A stretch of 29,763 nt of DNA from a virus. Each line of letters opens with the position of its first letter. The first letter of the stretch is position 1. The stretch spans positions 1 through 29,763 of IMG/VR virus record IMGVR_UViG_3300035204_000864; one strand, 5' to 3'. The notes beneath the pieces are model-generated. The model was given only the letters and a program-made list of their open reading frames with translations, made no database searches and was not told the DNA's origin. The position numbers and the translations under genes were made by a program. Shown one piece after another: positions 5,616 through 24,883 of the stretch.

Positions 5616-7091
5616 ATGCCTAAAATTTCACCATTTCAGATGACAGAAGCACAGGCTTGGGCAGGACTAACAACCAAGAACCACCTAGGTGCTATCTATC
5701 AGTCAAAACCTCAGTTGGCATCTAAACTTATGACAAGGATTGCTCAGACAAACTTTGGATTAGATTTAGACAGCTATCTAGATCAATTTTCCCCTCTGTA
5801 TTTAGATACAGATGATGATTTTGAATGGGATTTGATTGGTAGCGCAAAAAAGAATGTTCCTCTTGTAGAAGCAAGGATTGCAGGAACTGCAGTAGTAGCT
5901 AGCGATACTGCTGGAAAAAACTTTACAGAATTTGAACTTGTTTTTCCAGAGCAATGGTTCTCAGATGAGAATGTAATTGTTGGAGAGAAGAATGAAGTTT
6001 ATTCTGTACAGATTATTGCTGATCCAACGCCAGAAGGAAGTAACTGGGTATATCGTGTAAAACTAATTACAGGAGATCCAGATTTATATTTTCCTTTTGA
6101 AGAATTAGCTGCAGGTAAGCGATTTTCTAAAGACTGGTCTTTGGTAGAGCAAACTCTATCTAAAAAAGGTGGTCTTGTGAACTTTGTATCTCCATTTAAA
6201 ATGCGAAATGCTTTCTCAATGATCAGGATGCAGCACACTGTTCCTGGTAACATGATTGACAGACCTTTTGCAACAGCTTGGAGAGACGATAAAGGAACTG
6301 TTCATAAAACTTGGACTCAGTATGAAGATTATCAGTTTGATATGCAATTTCGTCAAGAAAAAAACAGATTGTTGATGTATGCGCAAGCAAACAAAACTAC
6401 TGATGGTAAATACAAGAACTTTGGAAAATCAGGACACATCAAGAAACAAGGTGCTGGTATCCGTCAGCAAATGGAATCTTCAAACACTAGCTATTACAAC
6501 AACTTCTCAATTGATTATTTGATTGACATTCTTTTAGATCTTTCTGAAGGAAAGCTACCAAGTGACAAACGAGAATTTGTAATGAGAACTGGTGAGCGTG
6601 GTGCAGTACAGTTCCACAAAGCAATTGAGAACAATGTACAATTGTTTACTCCACTATATAATGAAAGCCGCATGTATAAAGCAGGTGGACAGTCAGGTGT
6701 GAAAATGCCTTATGGTTATGGTGGACAATTCATAGAGTACATGGGTCCTCAAGGAATTAAAGTTAATCTAAGTGTTGATTCTCTGTATGATGACAGAGAA
6801 AGGAATAAGATCTATCATCCAGATGGTGGTGTAGCAGAATCTTACAGATATGACATCTTGGATGTTGGTACTTCTGACGGAGAGCCAAATATCCGAAAAG
6901 TCTATGTAAGAGGAGGTGAAAACGGAATGGGCTATGAGCCTGGACTCCGTCATCCATTCTCAAGAGGTGGTGAGCGTAATATCATGGCACACTCTACTGA
7001 TGGCTATACAGTTCATAAGTGGTCAATGTGTGGAGCTATGGTTAAAGATCCTTCAAGGACTGCGCAGATTATTCCATCAATCTTAGCATAA
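5616..7091 (+). CDS. Major capsid protein (crAss-like, HK97 fold inferred)
   Basis: A 491-residue protein, the expected size for a crAss-like major capsid protein, encoded after portal and scaffold. The C-terminal part contains MPYGYGGQFIEYMGPQGIKV, YDDRERNKIYHPDGG and YEPGLRHPFSRGG. This matches my memory of the conserved C-terminal half of crAss-like capsid proteins, ending near VKDPSRTAQIIPS. It would form the icosahedral shell. Codon use differs from the neighbours: by eye about 11 of 25 Arg codons are CGN, whereas terminase and portal use almost only AGA/AGG, which fits very high expression. It has one of the best A-rich leaders in the window. The HK97 fold is assumed from the family and was not modelled. 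Confidence 0.85.
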   Translation: MPKISPFQMTEAQAWAGLTTKNHLGAIYQSKPQLASKLMTRIAQTNFGLDLDSYLDQFSPLYLDTDDDFEWDLIGSAKKNVPLVEARIAGTAVVASDTAGKNFTEFELVFPEQWFSDENVIVGEKNEVYSVQIIADPTPEGSNWVYRVKLITGDPDLYFPFEELAAGKRFSKDWSLVEQTLSKKGGLVNFVSPFKMRNAFSMIRMQHTVPGNMIDRPFATAWRDDKGTVHKTWTQYEDYQFDMQFRQEKNRLLMYAQANKTTDGKYKNFGKSGHIKKQGAGIRQQMESSNTSYYNNFSIDYLIDILLDLSEGKLPSDKREFVMRTGERGAVQFHKAIENNVQLFTPLYNESRMYKAGGQSGVKMPYGYGGQFIEYMGPQGIKVNLSVDSLYDDRERNKIYHPDGGVAESYRYDILDVGTSDGEPNIRKVYVRGGENGMGYEPGLRHPFSRGGERNIMAHSTDGYTVHKWSMCGAMVKDPSRTAQIIPSILA

Positions 7092-7997: not shown

Positions 7998-8705
7998 ATG
8001 ACAGCGGTAGAAATGAGAGATTTGTTTTTTATCTTATATGATAAGATCACTAATCTAGCAGCTCCGGGATATACTGATGATGAAGTTTCTGATTTTTTAA
8101 ATAAAGCCCAGCTACAATTTGTCAAGCATAGGTATAATGAAAAAGGCAATAAGTATCAGGAAGGATTTGAAGAAACAGAAAAGAGAAGGAAAGATCTAGC
8201 ACAATTAACTAGAAATTTAGTTGCTGGTGCATCTTCAGATCAAACAGGAGTATCTCCTAATGGAGTATTCTATGATTTGCCAGAAGGATTTATGTACACC
8301 TTGAGAGAGGAAGCAACAATATCAAGTGATGATGCGTGTATAGATGGAAAGAGGATCTACATAAAACCAATTACTCATGATGAGTATGCGATTAATTTAT
8401 TAAATCCTTTTAAACAACCTGATCATACTGTAGCTTGGAGATTAGATTACAGTAATACTGCTCCTGTTTCAGGAACTGCCACTAAAAGGCATGAATTGGT
8501 AACAGATGGTACTTATAGTGTGGGAACATATCATTTAAGATATTTAAATATGCCTGCAAATATAGATATCGCTGGAGGAATAACTTCAGAGTTAGATCCC
8601 TCAGTTCACGAAGAAGTGGTAGATGCTGCAGTTAGAATAGCCGCAGGAATAACAGATCCAGGAACATATCAAATTAAAGTAGTAGAAGAACAACAAGGAG
8701 AATAA
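7998..8705 (+). CDS. Ring/adaptor-type neck protein
   Basis: This 235-residue protein opens with a helical segment (EMRDLFFILYDKITNLAAPG, then DDEVSDFLNKAQLQFVKHRY). That pattern is typical of head-tail adaptor or ring proteins that stack below the portal. The middle is beta-rich and the end returns to helix (DPSVHEEVVDAAVRIAAGI), again as in adaptors, where a terminal helix packs on the portal or the next ring. The neighbouring gene begins one base after its stop. Two other proteins in the window (at 21524 and 24053) have the same general plan. Which ring of the crAss-like tail it forms cannot be told from sequence alone. Confidence 0.6.
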   Translation: MTAVEMRDLFFILYDKITNLAAPGYTDDEVSDFLNKAQLQFVKHRYNEKGNKYQEGFEETEKRRKDLAQLTRNLVAGASSDQTGVSPNGVFYDLPEGFMYTLREEATISSDDACIDGKRIYIKPITHDEYAINLLNPFKQPDHTVAWRLDYSNTAPVSGTATKRHELVTDGTYSVGTYHLRYLNMPANIDIAGGITSELDPSVHEEVVDAAVRIAAGITDPGTYQIKVVEEQQGE

Positions 8706-9565: not shown

Positions 9566-10867
9566 ATGGCACAACAAGTAAGAAATGTAACAAATATCAT
9601 CGTTAATGGCCCTGCGGCTATAGCTCTTAGTACAGGAGGAGTGGATACTCTGAATGCAGGAGAAGTAGGAGCATTTAATGCAGATGGTACAAGAATAAAT
9701 GCAGGTAATGTAGGAGCTGCTACTAGCTTTTTTCTAGCTAGGGGTGATGATAAAGGTCAAGGATATTATGCAACAGATACTGTTGTAATAGCAGATATAG
9801 TATCTTCAGATGCTACTGGTCCTTTAACCGCAAATGCTCCTTCAGAGCAACAAGATTCCATTGGATATGATGGAACTTCTGGTTCTCTGGAAGCTATTAG
9901 CAATAACCTTTATCTAGTACGTCTATATATACAGGAGTTGTTAACTTCTAGCACTGATGGTGCAACTATCAAGCATTTCCAATATAAATCAGATGCTTCT
10001 GCTATACAAGCAGAAATTGCAATTGGTTTAACAGGAAGTGCAATTAACAACTTCTCTAAAGAAGCTACAGAGTATATTACCTTTAAAGCTCTTGTAAGTT
10101 CTGCAGTAGTTGTTGGTAATGACTTTGATAATGCTATCAGCTGGGTTAAAGGATCTAAAAGTATCCAATGTACTACTAACGTCCAATATGGAGGAGGTAC
10201 TGCAGCATTAGTAGGAGATTACATCCGGCTACATGCTTCTGATGCTACAGTAGTTCTAACTGATGACACTTATAAAATTACTGCCATTAGTGGTACAGTA
10301 ATAACTGTAGATCGTCCTATTCAAGTAACTGCTTATACCGACACTGGTAATAACAACGCAGGTAACGAAGTAATTACTGCTGCAACAGGAAATGCTGCTG
10401 ACTGGGGAGTTGATCTTCAGGGACAAGCACTTGCTTATTCTGTAGGAAAATTCTTCTATAAAATGGCTCGTTGGGTAGTAGGAATGGAGAACTTCGGTAC
10501 TTCAACTTCTGCTAGTGTATCTGCTGCTTCTAAAGGACAAGGTGACGGAAAAGACATAGCTGACCTAGAATGGTTCTGCTCTGGATTTGAAGGAGAAACC
10601 TATAGAATGGGAGAACCTGCTATCTACAATTTCGTAGGAACTGCAGATTCTACTTTAGATTATGCTATGTTTTCAGTAACCTGGAATGACACATCTTTAG
10701 TAGGATTTCAGAATGAAGTATCTCCTAAGATGTTAGTAGTAGCTATTCCTACTACACGACAGGCAGGAACAGGTACTGCTGCAAATGCTATATCTACTGG
10801 TGGAGGATTAGGCAACATGCTGAATACTCTACTATCGGTAACTATGAGTCCAGCATTGGCAATATAG
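9566..10867 (+). CDS. Probable abundant virion structural protein
   Basis: A 433-residue Ala/Gly/Thr/Ser-rich, beta-dominated protein that I cannot place in a named family. N-terminal: RNVTNIIVNGPAAIALSTGG. Middle: an IRLHASDATVVLTDDTYKI segment resembling a small beta barrel. C-terminal: KGQGDGKDIADLEWFCSGFE, then YRMGEP, which resembles a motif in tube- or shell-forming proteins of other Bacteroidota phages (memory only). Three things suggest high expression: the best leader in the window, relatively frequent CGN Arg codons (about 5 of 9), and a strong terminator 15 bases after its stop. A capsid-decorating or tail-tube-like role is possible; no motif decides it. Confidence 0.5.
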   Translation: MAQQVRNVTNIIVNGPAAIALSTGGVDTLNAGEVGAFNADGTRINAGNVGAATSFFLARGDDKGQGYYATDTVVIADIVSSDATGPLTANAPSEQQDSIGYDGTSGSLEAISNNLYLVRLYIQELLTSSTDGATIKHFQYKSDASAIQAEIAIGLTGSAINNFSKEATEYITFKALVSSAVVVGNDFDNAISWVKGSKSIQCTTNVQYGGGTAALVGDYIRLHASDATVVLTDDTYKITAISGTVITVDRPIQVTAYTDTGNNNAGNEVITAATGNAADWGVDLQGQALAYSVGKFFYKMARWVVGMENFGTSTSASVSAASKGQGDGKDIADLEWFCSGFEGETYRMGEPAIYNFVGTADSTLDYAMFSVTWNDTSLVGFQNEVSPKMLVVAIPTTRQAGTGTAANAISTGGGLGNMLNTLLSVTMSPALAI

Positions 10868-13397: not shown

Positions 13398-15407
13398 ATG
13401 CCTACAATAAATAGCTTACCAGCAATAGCCTCAATATCAGGAAGTGAAGAGTTTGTGATTAATAATGCAGGAACTGACAATAAATGTACTGCAACACAAA
13501 TTACAGCAACAGTAACTACCAACTTGACTGCAGAGATAGCTACCAGAACTTCTGAGGTGGCTACTTTGACAACAGCTAAACTAGCTTTAGCGGGAGGTAC
13601 TATGACAGGAGATTTAGTGTTAGCAGGAGCTCCTACAGCTAGCTTGCATGCAGCTACTAAATTATATGCAGATGGTCTAGTTGCAGGACTTGCTACTTTA
13701 GCTTCTCCAGCGTTAACCGGAGCCCCCACTGCTCCTACAGTAACTGCTACTGCAACTAGCGGAAGTACTACAGTAGCCAATACTCTGTATAGTAAAAATG
13801 ATATATATGAAAAAACAAATCTAAAGAAGACGGTATTAGATGCAGCTACATTAACTTTAACAACTGCTCATAGAGGTACCATTGCTGTAGATTATACTGG
13901 AGCAGGAACATGTAATATTACTCTCCCCGTTATAAGTACTCTCACCATTCCTTTAGGTTATGAATATTATATAGTAGATACTGGCAACAATGCAGGAACA
14001 AATACCATCACTGTAACTGCAGGCGCAGGAAATACTGTAGATGGAGGAGCTACTACAACTATTACTACAGATGGAGAAAGCATGCTCCTAGCAAATGACG
14101 GCAACACTGTATGGTATATAAAAGATAAAGACTCAATAGCATCTGCAACTGTACAAGGAAAAGTAGAATTAGCAACTACTGCAGAGGCTGCATTACTTAC
14201 AGATACTACAAGGGCAGTAACTGCTGCAGGGATAGGAACTGTTCTAGATACTTTTCCCTATAATATTACACAATTAGGGAGTGCTTCTCACACCTTAACA
14301 GCAGCTAACACTGGAACATGCTATGTTACACGAACTACTACAGGAGCATGTGCAATAACTCTTCCAGATCCCAGTACATCAGTTATTAATGCAAGAGTTC
14401 AATATGCTATTTATGATGCAGGAACTGCAGCTATAAATAACATTACAATAACTTCTGCAGGAGGTACTATAGATGGGGTATCTTCTTTTGTTATTAACAA
14501 CAATAAAATGGGAGCTACATTTTTCCATGATGGAACTAATTGGTACTCTATAGCAAATACACAAACTGCATACTCAGGAGGAGCTACTACTCCATGGACT
14601 GCTATAGGAGGAATTACAAATATTTACTTTGCATATCATGCAACCATAGGTTCTACTGCTTCTCCTGCTGCTGTTCTTCAGTTAGACCAGACAAGTGGAG
14701 ATGTAGATATAGTCTTTTCTCAAGCAGCAGCTGCTAAGTTTGCAATGGGAATAGATGATACAGATGATAATTGGAAAATATCTTCAGGAGGAACTGTAGG
14801 AACTGGAGATATTCTAAATATAGATGATAGTAATTCTCACATGGGATGGGGAGTAGCTCCAGATGCTAATACTAAAATTAAAGTTATTGGCATTGCCTCT
14901 GCTTCTAAAATAGTAGATGTGCAAAATGCTGCTGCAAATGTAGCTTTTACATCCTATGAAAATTTAACTGGACTTATAGGAAATGGACTGAGTGTAGGAG
15001 GTGCTGCACCTGTTGTTGATAGTGATGGTATTAATGTAAATGGAACTGCCTTTACTAAAGGCCTTAAAGTAGAGATTGCTACCACAGGATCTAGTCTTAT
15101 AGGGGCAGAGTTACAACTAGACCATACAAATGCAGGATACTCTCATACAGCTTTACAATTAGAAGCTAGTGGAGCAGATAACAACTATGCTTTAGTCACT
15201 GTGGGAGGAAATGTAGGAATAGGAACTGCAACTCCAGCTGCTAGTGCATTAATGGATTTAACCAGTACAACAGGGTCATTGTTACTTTCAAGAATGACCA
15301 CTACCCAAAGAAATGCCTTAACTGCTGTAAATGGAATGATACTTTATAACTCAACTTTAAATAAAGTACAAGTTTATGAAGGGGGAGCCTGGGCTAGTGT
15401 AATTTAA
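13398..15407 (+). CDS. Large tail-fibre protein
   Basis: A 669-residue modular fibre. Residues 65-120 contain the phage fibre repeat signature LALAGGTMTGDLVLAGAPTA, followed by ATKLYADGLV. Next come two copies of a beta module (about 145-235 and 300-390) with the shared order ITLP, a strand, Thr-Ile-Thr-rich strands, DG and a Trp-Tyr pair. Further on are shaft-like segments (ILNIDDSNSHMGWGVAPDAN). The C-terminal ~60 residues (VGIGTATP, then LLSRMTTTQRNAL and MILYNSTLNKVQVYEGGAW) match the C-terminus of the fibre at 23170. The protein should be trimeric and act at the tail in host binding. Its DNA has almost no CpG: none between 14333 and 15463. Confidence 0.8.
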   Translation: MPTINSLPAIASISGSEEFVINNAGTDNKCTATQITATVTTNLTAEIATRTSEVATLTTAKLALAGGTMTGDLVLAGAPTASLHAATKLYADGLVAGLATLASPALTGAPTAPTVTATATSGSTTVANTLYSKNDIYEKTNLKKTVLDAATLTLTTAHRGTIAVDYTGAGTCNITLPVISTLTIPLGYEYYIVDTGNNAGTNTITVTAGAGNTVDGGATTTITTDGESMLLANDGNTVWYIKDKDSIASATVQGKVELATTAEAALLTDTTRAVTAAGIGTVLDTFPYNITQLGSASHTLTAANTGTCYVTRTTTGACAITLPDPSTSVINARVQYAIYDAGTAAINNITITSAGGTIDGVSSFVINNNKMGATFFHDGTNWYSIANTQTAYSGGATTPWTAIGGITNIYFAYHATIGSTASPAAVLQLDQTSGDVDIVFSQAAAAKFAMGIDDTDDNWKISSGGTVGTGDILNIDDSNSHMGWGVAPDANTKIKVIGIASASKIVDVQNAAANVAFTSYENLTGLIGNGLSVGGAAPVVDSDGINVNGTAFTKGLKVEIATTGSSLIGAELQLDHTNAGYSHTALQLEASGADNNYALVTVGGNVGIGTATPAASALMDLTSTTGSLLLSRMTTTQRNALTAVNGMILYNSTLNKVQVYEGGAWASVI

Positions 15408-15437: not shown

Positions 15438-15713
15438 ATGCCAATAACAGGAACACAGAAATACGTTGGACAGATTTCAGCTAATAACTTACAAGAGCTG
15501 ATATCTTTAACTGACGGCAAAGCATTAATAACAGAGGTAAGTGGTGGAACTACTTATGTGGGAAAAGCACCTCCAGGATCCGCTACTTCAGCTGCCAAAT
15601 GGCAAGTAAGTAGAATAGTAGTAGCTGGGGGTACAACAACTGTTACTTGGGCTGACGGAAATATAACTTATGATAATGTCTGGGATGACAGAGCTTCCTT
15701 AACTTATCTCTAA
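15438..15713 (+). CDS. Small conserved phage protein, fibre-associated
   Basis: A 91-residue protein with the pattern TYVGKAPPG, KWQVSRIVV, TWADGN and WDDRASLTYL. I associate this arrangement with a small protein found beside fibre genes in many marine phages (memory; no name). It is beta-rich, with no membrane segment. The gene has the leader AAAACTAAATAAGATG. Its place between the large fibre and another small virion protein suggests a fibre tip, linker or structural role. The function is not established from the sequence. Confidence 0.5.
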   Translation: MPITGTQKYVGQISANNLQELISLTDGKALITEVSGGTTYVGKAPPGSATSAAKWQVSRIVVAGGTTTVTWADGNITYDNVWDDRASLTYL

Positions 15714-16118: not shown

Positions 16119-16946
16119 ATGGCAGTAAAATTTGATCCAATTTTAGGTAAATTAAGAGAAGCAGATCCTGTTGGCGAAAGTGCCATTGGTAATGAAGTAA
16201 CCGATGGAACTGCAGGCTCTATATTATTTGTTGGAGCAGGCCCAGTTTTAGCTCAAGATAATGCTAATCTATTCTATGATGCCTCTAATGACAGACTAGG
16301 TATAGGTGTAGTTGACCCAGATTCTAAAGTTGAAGTCCTGGCTACTACTACTCAACAGAAGTGGTCTTATGATGCTGATAGTTTTGCAAAGATAACTGTA
16401 GCCGATTCAAGTAACACTACGATTGAAACTGGAGAAACAGGTACTATAACACTTGCTGATAGTGCTGGAACTTATGCTGTTGTTGATAATATTGGTTCAG
16501 CAACGGTTACTGGAGGACAAATAGCAGTTGTAGGAAGAAAAATGGCCATAACATCAACTACTGTTGGTGATTTTGATGGAGATGTAGTTTATTTTGGAAC
16601 AGGTACTACAGTATTAGGAAAAATATATCATTTCAAATCAGATGGATCTTGGGAATTAGCTGATGCTAACACTGTAGCTAATTGTGATGGCTTACTAGCC
16701 GTTGCTTTAGGAACCTCAGCCACAACACATGGCATGCTGTTAAGAGGAATGGCAACAATAGCTGCAATTCAAGGAACAGAAGCAGTGGGAGATATTTTAT
16801 ATTTATCTGAAAGTGCAACTGGTGAAGCTGATTGTGTAGCACCTGCCGGAAGTGGTGATATTGTAAGAATTATAGGATATTGTCTACATGCTACTAATAA
16901 AACAATATGGTTCAATCCAGACAGCACATTCGTAGAACTAGCATGA
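16119..16946 (+). CDS. Tail-fibre/appendage protein with GIG module
   Basis: A 275-residue fibre-like protein. The N-terminal MAVKFDPILGKLREAD looks like a virion-attachment peptide. Residues 49-70 (LFYDASNDRLGIGVVDPDSK) are the 'LGIG..P' module also seen near the fibre C-termini at 15200 and 23840. The C-terminal ~130 residues (HFKSDGSWELADANTV; GDILYLSESATGEADC; VRIIGYCLHATNKTIWFNPD) resemble C-terminal domains of small marine-phage fibres. It ends one base before the first LamG gene, so the two are probably coupled. Receptor binding or connection to the LamG protein is the likely role. Confidence 0.65.
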   Translation: MAVKFDPILGKLREADPVGESAIGNEVTDGTAGSILFVGAGPVLAQDNANLFYDASNDRLGIGVVDPDSKVEVLATTTQQKWSYDADSFAKITVADSSNTTIETGETGTITLADSAGTYAVVDNIGSATVTGGQIAVVGRKMAITSTTVGDFDGDVVYFGTGTTVLGKIYHFKSDGSWELADANTVANCDGLLAVALGTSATTHGMLLRGMATIAAIQGTEAVGDILYLSESATGEADCVAPAGSGDIVRIIGYCLHATNKTIWFNPDSTFVELA

Positions 16947-16947
16947 T

Positions 16948-17760
16948 ATGGGTGCAGATAAAATCATTGGGACATCTGTAAGCGACATTTCTAAGATAGG
17001 AGATATAGCCATAGGAGACATTTCTAGCATAATGGGAGAAGATGTCTCTTCCTGGGCAGATACCACATCCTTATCCTATGAAACAGACGATTATCAGGAG
17101 AGCAATACATGGGATACTATTGATGGCACATCAAATTTTAGTGTTTCATTATGGTTTAAAACAAACTCACTTGCAGCAACTCAAAGAATTGTCACAGGAT
17201 ATGAAACAGGAACGGATTGGAATCTTTATCTGAAACTCAACACCGCAGGAATAGTAACTGTTTGGTCAGGAGGCAGCGCATCTAATTGGACAAGCTCAAC
17301 AGCAAATTTGGTGATAGATACGTGGTATCATATTGTAATAACTTTAGATGCAAGTGCAGCAAGTAGATACCACAAACAGAAAATATATATTGATAGCGTT
17401 TCAGGATATACATCAAACTATTATATCACTAATATTCCAAACGGAACTACTTTAGCGGTTGGCGCAAATCCTAATTATACCCATTCAGCATACTTTCAGC
17501 CTGTTAATGGTTATATAAATGAATTAGCAATCTGGGGTAATTACGCCTTAGACCAAACCGAAATTGATGAGATTTATAATTTGGGCAAACCAAATGACTT
17601 AACGACTTTAACCACCCCAAGTCCAACGAATTGGTGGCGTAGTGAAAGTGGAGTTTGGACAGGAGGTAGCTATTACGAAACTACTGACGAGATGGGAAGT
17701 GGTATAGTATTGACAACTAATAACATGGCAGAAGGTTCAAGGGTGGCTGAAGTACCATAA
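16948..17760 (+). CDS. LamG (concanavalin A-like) adhesin, single domain
   Basis: A 270-residue protein. Residues 1-32 (GTSVSDISKIGDIAIGDISS) match the N-terminus of the second LamG protein at 18040 and are probably the virion-anchor. Residues ~35-215 form one LamG jelly-roll (FSVSLWFKTNS; TWYHIVITLDAS; NGYINELAIWG; EIDEIYNLGKPNDL), the hallmark of the Laminin_G_3 group, which often binds glycans. The C-terminus has NWWRSESG and ends AEVP. By hand count bases 17161-17760 contain 15 CpG, against 3 at 12361-12960 and none at 14401-15000, which suggests recent transfer. Only the general fold is claimed; the ligand is unknown. Confidence 0.8.
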   Translation: MGADKIIGTSVSDISKIGDIAIGDISSIMGEDVSSWADTTSLSYETDDYQESNTWDTIDGTSNFSVSLWFKTNSLAATQRIVTGYETGTDWNLYLKLNTAGIVTVWSGGSASNWTSSTANLVIDTWYHIVITLDASAASRYHKQKIYIDSVSGYTSNYYITNIPNGTTLAVGANPNYTHSAYFQPVNGYINELAIWGNYALDQTEIDEIYNLGKPNDLTTLTTPSPTNWWRSESGVWTGGSYYETTDEMGSGIVLTTNNMAEGSRVAEVP

Positions 17761-17769
17761 ATTAAAAAG

Positions 17770-18024
17770 ATGATTCATTTACCAAATATATACGCAATCA
17801 TCAATATCGTTGATTTAAGCAATGTTGATTTTGCTCAAATAGGAGAAACATCTGATGATACGATAAGAAAAAATGCAGATTCAACAGAGTTTGTCATAAA
17901 GTGGTATGATAAAAATGAGCCATCTTTTATAACAGATGGAACAGTAATACCTTTACAAATTTTGACACCTTCTGGATGTACATCTTTAATGGCAACTCCG
18001 GAATGGAGCAAAGAACCTATATAG
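17770..18024 (+). CDS. LamG-companion small protein, copy 1
   Basis: An 84-residue protein 9 bases after the first LamG gene. Key stretches are VDFAQIGETSDDTIRKNAD, STEFVIKWYD, PLQILTPSG and ATPEWSKEP. It is a clear paralogue of the 85-residue protein at 20394, which also follows a LamG gene. I recall similar 'FVKW...TPEW' small proteins after fibre genes in Bacteroidota phages, without a known function. There is no signal peptide or membrane segment. The linked duplication suggests it works with its LamG partner as an assembly factor, fibre cap or connector (inference). Confidence 0.6.
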   Translation: MIHLPNIYAIINIVDLSNVDFAQIGETSDDTIRKNADSTEFVIKWYDKNEPSFITDGTVIPLQILTPSGCTSLMATPEWSKEPI

Positions 18025-18039
18025 CAAGTATAAATTAAC

Positions 18040-20382
18040 ATGGGCGCAGATAAAGTAAGCGGAACATCAGTAAGTGCTATCTCTAAGATAGACAATATAG
18101 CTATAGGAGATATTGCCAAGATAAATGAGCAAACTGTCTCTACGTTTTCAAATACCTATTCCTTAAATTTTGATGGGGTAAATGATTTTGTGGAAACAAC
18201 ATCTACCTATTCTCCTTTAGATGGTGGCACTACAATGTCAATATCAGTTTGGATAAAACCCGTAACAGGAGATACATATTATATGATTCTCCATAACCCG
18301 AGAAATGCGGTTGCACAACAAGGTCAAATTATGTTATTCTTTTATTCGAGTTTTATCGAACTATCACTTTCAACAAGGAGTCAATTTGTTAGAAGTACGG
18401 CTGGTGCAATTACTATGGATGCTTGGAATCATATACTTTGTTGTGTTGATTTAGATAATGCAACAGAGGGAAAAATATATGTAGACGGAGTAGATGTAAC
18501 ATCGGGAGATAATCTATCAACTTTTCTTGCTTTTGAAGTTGCCTCAGGTGTTATGAGATTGGGAAAAGAACAAACAGGATATTTGTCTCCATTTTTAGGT
18601 AATATTGATGAGTTTGCTATTTGGAATACAGATCAGAGAGCAAACGTAGCTGACATCTATAATTCAGGAGCTCCTGGGGATTTAAGTGCATTAGCTGCTC
18701 CTCCGATTACTTGGTGGCGAAACGGAGATTCAGGAACTTTTAATGATGATTCAAATTGGTGGATTCCTGACCAAATGAAAATAGATAATTTTAGTTCTCA
18801 TTCATTCCATTTTGATGGAATCAATGATTATGTGAGTTGTGGAAATATAACAGCCCTTAATGGTTCAGGTACAGCTACCTGGGCAGGATGGGTAAAACCA
18901 GAAAATGCAGCAACTGGAGAGACTCCATTTTCACAATATGGTACATCTGGTGATAGACAATTTTCTTGGTTTGTAACATCATCAAGAGCAAGAATAGATG
19001 TTTTTATGAATGGAAATGTAGTGTTTAGAGCGTCAGGAGGCAGTGATTTATTGGATGCTGATGTTTGGAATTTTGTTGCAATCACCTATAATAAAGATAA
19101 TGTAGCAGCAGATGAAGTAAAAGTGTATGTAGGAAAAGGTGGAAGTATAGCAAGAGTTACTGAAACAGGAGGTTTTACTGGAGATAATGCTGTTTTATAT
19201 TCTACTACCTCAGATTTCTTAATCGGTTCTATGGATGAGGGAAGTCCAGGAAGATTTTGGGAAGGCAATATTGATAATGTGGGAATTTGGGATGTAGAGT
19301 TAGATTTAGCTACAGTTACATCACTATATAATTCTGAAGTGCCAAATGACCTCAGAGTAGCAGCAAGTTATACGGCAGGAGGTGGAACAGATAAAAGTGG
19401 AGATTTACAAGGCTATTGGCTAATGGGAGAGAACGCTTATTGGAATGGGACTAATTGGTGGATTCCTGCTTATAATAATAACGCTTTATTTTCTCAAAGG
19501 TCTTTCAACTTTGATGGAATAAATGACTATATTGATTGTGGAAATGATAGTTCATTATACCCAGGAACAGGAGATATGAGTTACTCATTATGGATAAAAC
19601 CTGATTCTATTACAGGAAGTAATATGGTTATTTTAGGACCGCCAACTATGAGTACAAGCTCATTAGGAGTTGATATAAGGAGAAATACAAACACTATTAA
19701 AGTATTTATGGGAGTAGGTGTAGCAGGGCAATGGGGAGTAAATACAGGTGGGGGAACAGGTGGAGCAGGATTGGTTACTTCTGCGGTTTTAGCTGTAGGT
19801 GTATGGTGTCACATAGTATTAACTTTAGATAGAGATGGAAATGGTGTTATCTATATAAATGGAGTTGCTAATGTTACAGCAGCAATGAATCCAAATGATT
19901 ATTCGGGTACTGATATAACTTCCTCAGCCGTTTTACAAATAGGAGGAGCAGCAGATGGAGATTTTGAGGGCAACATTGATGATTTAGGAATGTGGAATAC
20001 GGTCTTAGATGCAAATACAGTAGCATCTATTTATAATTCAGGAGAACCTAACGATCTTAGATTAACTGCTTCTTACACAGCAGGAAGCGGAGTAGATAAG
20101 AGTGGAGATTTACAAGGCTACTGGAGAATGGGCGAAGGAGCTACATGGGATGGCTCAGATTGGACTATCCCTGATGATTCTACAAATTCCAATGATGGGA
20201 CAAGCTCAGGAATGGATGAAGAAGACTTAGAATTTAATACACCAGGGAATTTAATAGCAGGACTTAGTTCGGGCATGGCGATAGATGATAAAGTAAACAA
20301 CGCACCAGGCAATATTAACCAGGGACTGAGCTCGGGAATGGGTGAAACAGCACCCTCTGGCAGATCAACTGATGTTCCTTAA
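18040..20382 (+). CDS. Triple-LamG adhesin
   Basis: A 780-residue protein. Residues 1-30 are the anchor shared with the first LamG protein. Three LamG jelly-roll domains follow at about 41-210, 255-430 and 488-668, each opening with a FDGxNDY/F motif (FDGVNDF, FDGINDY, FDGINDY) and closing with a GNID motif (GNIDEFAIWN, GNIDNVGIWD, GNIDDLGMWN). The linkers after domains 2 and 3 are nearly identical (SYTAG, DKSGDLQGYW). The C-terminal ~80 residues have GLSSGM repeats and end DVP, like the EVP end of the first protein. Multiple LamG domains should raise avidity for repeating glycans on capsule or outer membrane. The first domain is CpG-richer than the other two. Confidence 0.85.
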   Translation: MGADKVSGTSVSAISKIDNIAIGDIAKINEQTVSTFSNTYSLNFDGVNDFVETTSTYSPLDGGTTMSISVWIKPVTGDTYYMILHNPRNAVAQQGQIMLFFYSSFIELSLSTRSQFVRSTAGAITMDAWNHILCCVDLDNATEGKIYVDGVDVTSGDNLSTFLAFEVASGVMRLGKEQTGYLSPFLGNIDEFAIWNTDQRANVADIYNSGAPGDLSALAAPPITWWRNGDSGTFNDDSNWWIPDQMKIDNFSSHSFHFDGINDYVSCGNITALNGSGTATWAGWVKPENAATGETPFSQYGTSGDRQFSWFVTSSRARIDVFMNGNVVFRASGGSDLLDADVWNFVAITYNKDNVAADEVKVYVGKGGSIARVTETGGFTGDNAVLYSTTSDFLIGSMDEGSPGRFWEGNIDNVGIWDVELDLATVTSLYNSEVPNDLRVAASYTAGGGTDKSGDLQGYWLMGENAYWNGTNWWIPAYNNNALFSQRSFNFDGINDYIDCGNDSSLYPGTGDMSYSLWIKPDSITGSNMVILGPPTMSTSSLGVDIRRNTNTIKVFMGVGVAGQWGVNTGGGTGGAGLVTSAVLAVGVWCHIVLTLDRDGNGVIYINGVANVTAAMNPNDYSGTDITSSAVLQIGGAADGDFEGNIDDLGMWNTVLDANTVASIYNSGEPNDLRLTASYTAGSGVDKSGDLQGYWRMGEGATWDGSDWTIPDDSTNSNDGTSSGMDEEDLEFNTPGNLIAGLSSGMAIDDKVNNAPGNINQGLSSGMGETAPSGRSTDVP
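19338..20150 (+). repeat. Repeated LamG-plus-linker unit inside the triple-LamG gene
   Basis: The linkers after LamG domains 2 and 3 carry a perfect 20-base direct repeat, AGTGGAGATTTACAAGGCTA, at 19396-19415 and 20101-20120, 705 bases apart. Flanking sequence is also similar (SYTAG before it, GYW plus MGE after it). The spacing equals one LamG domain plus linker, so domains here arose by internal duplication and could still expand or contract by recombination. Confidence 0.8.
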
Positions 20383-20393
20383 TAACAAAAACA

Positions 20394-20651
20394 ATGGCAA
20401 AATCGTATATAACAATAAAGACAAGTGAAATTGATACAGTTAATTTCTCGCAAGTAATTGGAGATCGGGATTCAACTAGATTTTCATTAGATGATTCAGA
20501 ATTTATAGTCAAATGGAAATTTGGCGCACCTAGTATGCCTACGAGCATAGAAGCTGTACCAGAAACAGATCGCAGTTTGATTCTTACCCATGCACAAGCT
20601 GTAGAAAAAATGCAAACTCCTGAATGGAGTGATCCTAATCCCCCTGAGTGA
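20394..20651 (+). CDS. LamG-companion small protein, copy 2
   Basis: An 85-residue protein 11 bases after the triple-LamG gene, paralogous to the protein at 17770. Shared positions include the Val-x-Phe-x-Gln strand (VNFSQVIGDRDST against VDFAQIGETSDDT), SEFIVKW, ILTHAQAVEKM and TPEWSDP. Its stop overlaps the ATG of the next, membrane-protein gene by one base. As with copy 1, the function is unknown; association with the LamG protein is inferred from repeated linkage. Confidence 0.6.
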   Translation: MAKSYITIKTSEIDTVNFSQVIGDRDSTRFSLDDSEFIVKWKFGAPSMPTSIEAVPETDRSLILTHAQAVEKMQTPEWSDPNPPE

Positions 20652-23169: not shown

Positions 23170-24039
23170 ATGGGTATATATAGAACAGCATCAGCAGACG
23201 CAGAAAATGTATCTAACGCCCCTACAGGATTTTTTAATATATTTTTAGATGATTCAGGGGTTTTAATGAAAAAAGACTCTGAAGGCACAATAAGTTCTGC
23301 AGGAGGAGATGGGGGCATATATGCAGGAGATGGAACAATAAGTGGGGAAAGAATTATCACCATGACTCCTTACACTCTTAGATTTGATGGTACTTCATTT
23401 CCAGGATTGTTCTTTATAGACTCTCTTAATAATAGAGTAGGAGTTGGTACTGCAGACCCCACTAGCCAATTACATATTCAAGGATCTAGTAGCGTAACCA
23501 TAGTATTAGAAACTGCAGCTTTAGGTTTAGATGATCTTACTCCGGGAGGTACTTTTAATCATCAATCAGATATTTCATACAGAGTAAAGATAGATGGATT
23601 AGGAACTCCAGATACTTTTACCTGGTCAGCAGATGGAGGAACTACTTGGACAGCAACTGGAGTAGCAGTAACAGGAGCTGCTCAAACTCTAAATTATGGG
23701 ACTACTGTCACTTTTGGAGCAACAACTGGACATACCTTAAATAACTATTGGGATTTTACTGGAATAGCTAACAATCCTTTAAAATGCACTGATGAAGCAG
23801 GAACTGATATTCTAGCAGTAACCAATGATGGGAAGTTAGGTATTGGAACTATTACTCCAGATGCCAGTGCTATACTGGAATGTCAAACAACAACTCAAGG
23901 AGTACTATTTCCTAGAATGACAGAAACTGAAAGAGACGCTATAGTGTCTCCTACTGCAGGCCTTGTAATATATAATACAACAACAAATAAATTAAACCTT
24001 AGAGTTGCTGCAGCATGGGAAGCAATAACTTCAACATAG
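23170..24039 (+). CDS. Tail-fibre protein
   Basis: A 289-residue fibre. The N-terminal APTGFFNIFLDDSGVLMKKD pattern is typical of Bacteroidota phage fibres, followed by an SLNNRVGVGTADPTSQLHI module. The middle is beta-rich with an FTWSADGGTTWTATG segment. The C-terminal ~65 residues (LGIGTITPDASAIL, LFPRMTETERDAI, LVIYNTTTNKLNL, AAWEAI) align closely with the end of the 669-residue fibre at 13398. It lies just upstream of a ring-type gene, so it may be a tail-proximal fibre while the upstream ones are peripheral. Confidence 0.7.
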   Translation: MGIYRTASADAENVSNAPTGFFNIFLDDSGVLMKKDSEGTISSAGGDGGIYAGDGTISGERIITMTPYTLRFDGTSFPGLFFIDSLNNRVGVGTADPTSQLHIQGSSSVTIVLETAALGLDDLTPGGTFNHQSDISYRVKIDGLGTPDTFTWSADGGTTWTATGVAVTGAAQTLNYGTTVTFGATTGHTLNNYWDFTGIANNPLKCTDEAGTDILAVTNDGKLGIGTITPDASAILECQTTTQGVLFPRMTETERDAIVSPTAGLVIYNTTTNKLNLRVAAAWEAITST

Positions 24040-24052
24040 AAATCTTAGAATC

Positions 24053-24883
24053 ATGGCACTAACAGGTAAATACATAGGAATAGACAGGGTACTAGAAGGA
24101 ATATTCAGAGATTATGGCTGGACTCATGAAGTAGATTGGGCAGATGCTCTAGAATGGACTGGAGAAATACTAGATATGATTGCTGTCCCTCAACAGTATT
24201 TAGATAAGGTAACAGACGGTAATTTAGATTTAAATCATCCCTGTCCTATAGGAATAGATAAATATAGAGGATTACTACCTTGTGATATGATATATCCTGT
24301 TCAAGTAAGAGATAACGCCACTAAAGTTCCCTTAAGGTACAGTTCTGATACTTTTCATGGTGGATTAGAAAAAATGGAAGAGGGTTTACCTGCCTCTCCT
24401 GCCACTACTAGTCCTTTTGGCAGTATAGTATTCTCATCCCCTTTTATAGCCACTCAGGGCCAGCTAAGGGATACCTGCACCACAGATTTAACGTATACTA
24501 TAAATGGCTGCTACATATTCACAAATTTTAAGACAGGAGCTTTAGAATTAGTATATAAAGCCTTTCCTATGGATGAGAATGGACAACCTCTCATTCCAGA
24601 TAATGTTAAGTATACTCAAGCTATCAAGGCCTATATAGCAGAAAAGATAGGGCAGAAAATGTTCATGCAGGGAAAACTAGATGGGCAAAGATTTGGGCAT
24701 TTGCAAAAAGAAAGAGATTGGTATGTAGGGGCTGCCACTACTTCTGGACTAATGCCTACAATAGATCAGTTAGAATCCTGGAAGAATCAATTTGTTAGGT
24801 TAATTCCTCAAATGAACGCACATGGTACTGGATTTAAGTACTATGGAGATCCTTCAACAGAAAGAACTATTAACTCTTATTAA
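24053..24883 (+). CDS. Ring-type tail protein adjoining the muzzle
   Basis: A 276-residue protein immediately before the muzzle-type gene (2 bases between stop and next ATG). Helical N-terminus (YIGIDRVLEGIFRDYGWTHE; WADALEWTGEILDMI), a beta-rich middle with NGCYIFTNFKTGALELVYKA, and a helical C-terminus (IKAYIAEKIGQKMFMQGKLD) give the ring/adaptor plan. The 'CYIFTNFKTGALELVYKAFP' strand pair matches my memory of crAss-like ring proteins. In crAss-like genomes a ring gene lies next to the muzzle gene, and that synteny is seen here. It should form part of the stack between portal and tail tip. Confidence 0.7.
   Translation: MALTGKYIGIDRVLEGIFRDYGWTHEVDWADALEWTGEILDMIAVPQQYLDKVTDGNLDLNHPCPIGIDKYRGLLPCDMIYPVQVRDNATKVPLRYSSDTFHGGLEKMEEGLPASPATTSPFGSIVFSSPFIATQGQLRDTCTTDLTYTINGCYIFTNFKTGALELVYKAFPMDENGQPLIPDNVKYTQAIKAYIAEKIGQKMFMQGKLDGQRFGHLQKERDWYVGAATTSGLMPTIDQLESWKNQFVRLIPQMNAHGTGFKYYGDPSTERTINSY

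Follow-up and report, generated by a model that had tools for sequence, protein, structure and literature searches.

Two neighbouring units in a crAss-like phage contig each combine a gene for a LamG-domain protein with a gene, directly behind it, for a companion of about 85 residues, and the evidence that this companion is functionally tied to the LamG proteins is good. The contig – IMG/VR virus record IMGVR_UViG_3300035204_000864, whose full length of 29,763 bp is the window analysed here – had received a first-pass annotation from its letters alone, which described both units and proposed such a tie. We favour, with moderate confidence, the view that the LamG C-terminus is the target of the companion, which would serve it as an assembly chaperone encoded downstream, or as a transient cap, comparable in its working to Tfa and gp38.

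Both units lie on the forward strand, and their open reading frames (ORFs) are as first described. Unit 1 comprises a 270-amino-acid (aa) LamG protein (16948..17760) with one LamG/pentraxin-like domain and the 84-aa companion 1 (17770..18024), which starts 9 nucleotides (nt) past the LamG stop; unit 2 comprises a 780-aa LamG protein (18040..20382) with three LamG domains and the 85-aa companion 2 (20394..20651), starting 11 nt past the stop. The contrast between one LamG domain and three holds up against the Pfam family Laminin_G_3 (PF13385, curated cutoff 27.6 bits), which matches unit 1 over one stretch (65.8 bits, E 6.4e-18) and unit 2 over three (170.9 bits, E 2.7e-50). The N-termini of the large proteins are alike (MGADKIIGTSVSDISKIGDIAIGDI / MGADKVSGTSVSAISKIDNIAIGDI; 31% over 271 aa, E 2e-27), with a common start of 25–30 residues; at the DNA level, the first 60 nt of the genes agree at 77%. 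This anchor (16948..17055 in unit 1, modelled as short helices of low confidence) is common only to the two units: its motif MGADK...ISKI..IAIGDI found no match in the other 118 pairs discussed below. The companions are paralogous (35% identity over 78 aa, E 1e-9), both carry TPEWS, and one hidden Markov model (HMM) matches both.

Linkage of the companion to LamG genes

Single-protein seeds recovered few relatives of the companion, and a five-sequence alignment recovered 373 in one IMG/VR scan, of which 80 were kept. Positions conserved among them include R33, K44, P51 and T76-x-E78-W79. Searches of Pfam, PHROGs, NCBIfam (with 73 family members) and PDB sequences gave chance-level matches only; a match to Pizza6-SFW was dismissed, since it adds up tiny repeats within a designed protein. 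By these searches the companion is an undescribed family. Its few relatives in cultured phages – Synechococcus phage S-SKS1 and the immuto group of Flavobacterium phages – are all annotated 'hypothetical protein', and no literature on a LamG companion was found among the open-licence papers covered. Two scans of bacterial genome contigs, with one short pattern each, returned no relatives, which does not establish absence from bacterial genomes.

The forward test of linkage picked loci on the companion sequence alone and then ran a LamG HMM built here on all their ORFs. Where at least 500 nt were available upstream, a LamG ORF lay directly ahead of 74 of 78 companions. In the strict matched set of non-nested small ORFs from the same loci, 68/72 companions stood directly behind LamG, against 5/297 other small ORFs (Fisher p 7e-63), and 70/72 did so when LamG on either side was counted. 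The condition that the first-pass annotation had named as refuting the tie, a small protein lying mostly away from LamG genes, thus did not hold, and the adjacency, recurring in many other phage loci, exceeds chance. Besides L062 and L063, considered below, the exceptions were L066, where LamG lies directly downstream, and L022, where the companion is the second of a tandem (at L022:5998-6574, one LamG gene is followed by two companion genes).

The reverse test started from LamG proteins of this type alone, taken from companion-bearing loci, and so covers that LamG lineage; a companion lay directly behind LamG in 66 of the 72 loci with room downstream. In a second LamG class, whose members end with KSRFGL, the companion was directly behind in 40/79 loci and elsewhere in the locus in 11, mostly directly ahead of the LamG cluster. 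By eye, a 'D.SGNGNNGTLTNGPT(F/Y)S' strand motif precedes the LamG core in proteins with this ending (e.g. the tails of L064 and L072) and follows it in those ending with TDVP, so that the two classes look as if they were related by circular permutation of the LamG domain.

The pair is spread over crAss-like, sipho-, flavobacterial myo- and cyanophages, and recurs across phages of otherwise unrelated gene content and differing LamG anchors. In S-SKS1 the gene ahead of the companion encodes 960 aa and four LamG stretches; in immuto the companion stands behind three proteins that are LamG-like by the HMM built here, though Pfam does not match the last of them, immuto26A_222. In all 120 non-redundant pairs the companion starts at ATG, between -4 and +45 nt from the LamG stop, which fits the expectation of translational coupling. 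Tandem arrays hold up to six LamG genes per single companion, an arrangement that fits a shared chaperone.

Exchange between phages conserves tail and companion but not LamG body or anchor

Conservation along the pair is uneven. Mean identity is about 50% for both companions and LamG tails and 29% for LamG bodies. The C-terminal tail of unit 2 (20038..20379, ending ...GRSTDVP) is 77–93% identical per 30-column window to that of a related locus, L002, where the LamG body reaches only 16–43%. Across 93 dereplicated pairs, companion distance tracks tail distance (Mantel r 0.39, p 0.0005; partial 0.35 given the body) and shows no correlation with body distance (partial 0.04, p 0.18). Nearness on the DNA is out as the sole cause of this covariation: the body half nearer to the companion correlates less with it (0.13) than the farther half (0.23), and a non-adjacent LamG still has a tail that tracks the companion across 26 tandem arrays (r 0.27, p 0.0025). 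When the last LamG domain and tail were taken whole, adjacent and distal LamG proteins could not be separated by companion covariation (r 0.67 vs 0.70). The pattern indicates a three-part exchange, with a phage-specific anchor, a variable LamG body, and a conserved tail that moves together with its companion.

The duplication of both genes as a unit that the first-pass annotation had assumed is not supported as a recent event. A tree of 120 companions separates the window copies at its deepest split (98/99 support), and forcing them together is rejected (approximately unbiased (AU) test, p 0.0086), in an alignment of only 86 columns that leaves many inner forks unresolved. Companion 2 is 75% identical to the companion of L002 and 67% to that of another locus, L007; the 3' end of the unit 2 LamG gene (~110 nt) together with companion 2 shares 79% DNA identity with L002, whose LamG protein has a different anchor. 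The simplest account would be that two long-separated lineages of tail plus companion now stand behind one phage-specific anchor. Alternatively, a local duplication may have been followed by replacement of one 3' part.

Candidate roles of the companion

Structure prediction gives some shape to the partners. AlphaFold2 folds the companion alone as a small alpha/beta domain (mean predicted local distance difference test (pLDDT) 82.6, predicted template-modelling score (pTM) 0.66) with helices of at most 8 residues in the 84-aa model. A fold search of the PDB gave no confident match (Foldseek E 0.45 at best; the top VIA hit, at Z 4.5, is an unrelated protein), and one of BFVD gave confident matches to uncharacterised viral proteins only. 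Among the BFVD matches to this model (mc4c09f994631) is A0A7M3UP30 (E 7e-4, template-modelling (TM) scores 0.62/0.71), a protein of 72 aa from a giant virus of algae, Pyramimonas orientalis virus.

The companion of unit 1 begins three codons past the LamG stop and in the same frame, and the two proteins were also folded as one chain, with TAA read as Q. In this fused model LamG and tail are confident and pentraxin-like, a ConA/pentraxin jelly-roll with Z 23.0 to 4dqa (208 residues, 2.6 Å; model residues 33–273), so the tail appears to be part of the LamG sandwich: the strands of the unit 1 tail (17581..17757, ending ...RVAEVP) close the LamG fold in the model and are the likely site of companion contact. 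Over most of its length the companion rises to pLDDT 92–97, from 80–89 alone. The large proteins of the window are clear members of the LamG_3/pentraxin ConA-like lectins by sequence and fold, and their LamG domains probably bind surface glycans, to judge from that fold; they differ from other members in being phage-borne, with a phage-specific anchor and a dedicated partner gene.

On the chaperone reading, each unit would be a two-gene receptor-binding cassette. The large gene would supply the adhesin – a phage-particular N-terminal anchor followed by one to three LamG/pentraxin-like domains – and the companion would bind the C-terminal tail, help the LamG protein to fold or cap it, and be released afterwards. 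Chaperones encoded downstream of their clients are known in Tfa, gp38, Pam3 gp25 and V22 gp27 (PMC9608196, PMC7289586); Pam3 gp25, which is not found in virions, embraces the fibre at its distal part (PMC9608196, PMC10579305, PMC7289586), and the V22/A5 fibre–chaperone module is common to distant phages (PMC9608196, PMC7289586, PMC10579305). With Tfa of lambda and Mu and with T4 gp38, the companion has in common a small gene directly 3' of the gene for a receptor-binding protein – presumably the LamG protein here – and a proposed action at the C-terminal end, but its client is a LamG/pentraxin-like protein. Tfa, moreover, has ~175–195 aa and no detectable homology to the companion, which has ~80 aa and one alpha/beta domain. 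Pam3 gp25, as well as gp27 of Alteromonas phage V22 and gp9 of A5, resemble it as downstream chaperones of aquatic phages; unlike the companion, however, Pam3 gp25 includes a helical trimerisation domain among its 162 residues, and V22 gp27 is a 21.8-kDa protein with a DUF4376-type C-terminus.

We therefore say that the companion may work like Tfa-type chaperones and make no claim of Tfa membership, because neither homology nor a helical domain was found. No Tfa family was matched in a Pfam scan of 73 companions. On a fold like that of the Tfa N-terminus the PDB comparison gave no clear answer either way, with no confident match and the unrelated protein, at VIA Z 4.5, as the best hit. A 'PEW..xPE'-like end common to Tfa and companion was treated as coincidence.

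Several points weigh against the chaperone reading. Comparison with a three-sequence alignment of lambda Tfa and Mu U/U' gave an hhalign probability of 0.1, and the helical trimerisation domain of Pam3 gp25 has no counterpart in the companion model. Common descent may account for the covariation between companion and tail, and noise in aligning LamG bodies this divergent tends to depress their correlation. The fused model has only a moderate pTM (0.74, with ~38 low-confidence N-terminal residues), which by rough estimate would lie between independent and fixed placement of the two parts, and the gain in companion pLDDT may reflect the differing alignments of the two runs; the model offers no more than a hint of LamG–companion contact. 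Finally, ~8% of same-class LamG loci have no companion nearby, as do 28/79 loci of the KSRFGL class, a count not corrected for contig ends.

Assembly factor and connector, two roles suggested at the outset, are both candidates, as is a cap. That the companion stays on the virion as a permanent cap or tip on the LamG C-terminus, making a true two-component adhesin, is the reading next in rank and seems to us possible but rather unlikely. The same linkage and tail covariation and the confidence gain in the fused model would suit such a role, and terminally attached proteins are known on Mu, S16 and T2-like fibres (PMC7289586); the gp38 tip adhesin of S16 and T2-like phages is likewise a small protein in its own right, and the C-terminal tip is its presumed place, as proposed for the companion. 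That gp38, however, bears host specificity, and tip adhesins that set specificity are usually variable, whereas the companion is more conserved than its client; one companion per several LamG genes, too, suits a catalytic helper better.

We consider it improbable that the small gene acts elsewhere – in the baseplate, the neck or regulation – and merely keeps a conserved operon position. The LamG–companion interaction is itself something we infer, and two companions have no recognisable LamG neighbour (that of L062 adjoins a DUF285-repeat protein, and L063 shows no LamG on little upstream sequence), but the pair recurs amid unrelated genes and behind different anchors, and the control small ORFs have no such linkage. 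About equally improbable, if not slightly more so, is a specificity element that alters glycan recognition. The companion does travel almost always with a lectin gene, and companion sub-types exist; yet its sequence varies less than that of the LamG body, and in step with the tail and not the body, which argues against the swappable specificity element of the first-pass annotation, and unit 2 and L002 have the same companion and tail type while their LamG bodies differ. Stop-codon read-through into a LamG–companion fusion, to which the in-frame arrangement of unit 1 might point, is very improbable, given that LamG and companion share a frame in 38/120 pairs (close to the third that chance would give), that several have two stops in a row and that no fused ORF was found.

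For a widespread family so far annotated only as 'hypothetical', the findings supply a client, a class of function and a way to test it. Were the companion needed for folding, glycan- or host-binding assays on LamG-type receptor-binding proteins from crAss-like phages and from those of flavobacteria and cyanobacteria should co-express it, and it would serve as a marker of receptor-binding genes where phages are uncultured and known from their genomes.

Lectin-type phage proteins may quite generally have a small dedicated partner encoded behind them. At L066:4279-4515 (and in L171-L227), another, unrelated family of ~79 aa (MLTNGYKYITEQDAYNAREACDAYYG...) lies directly behind an ArabFuran-catal-like protein (PF09206, E 1e-11); a scan found it in 57 loci, and 52 of the 55 copies with room upstream stand directly behind a relative of the same large protein. 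This is consistent with a partner family for each lectin type. A far-reaching version, which we hold to be doubtful, is that phage ConA-like lectins as a class need dedicated ~80-aa partners, one family per lectin type, kept on the virion as C-terminal caps, in two-component adhesins whose body, anchor and tail-plus-partner are swapped as modules.

Gene surroundings in the window

The window is a whole virus contig from a crAss-like phage. The Crassvirales markers – major capsid, muzzle and ring proteins – are present (PF23898 E 1.1e-155, PF25731 E 1.9e-112, PF25710 E 4.2e-33, PF24228 E 4.6e-48). The major capsid protein (5616-7091) is the PF23898 match, and Pfam profiles also place a ring 3/4 protein (7998-8705), an auxiliary capsid protein (9566-10867), a ring 1 protein (24053-24883) and a muzzle protein (24886 to the window end). 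Between these structural genes, both LamG–companion units sit amid fibre-like genes.

A 91-aa ORF (15438-15713; ...WADGNITYDNVWDDRASLTYL), which matched no Pfam family, lies directly behind a 669-aa fibre-like gene (13398-15407) and may be one more small partner, in this case of a fibre gene. The LamG region is flanked by two further fibre-like genes, 16119-16946 and 23170-24039, which both match phrog_5906 (E 0.002 and 3.4e-6).

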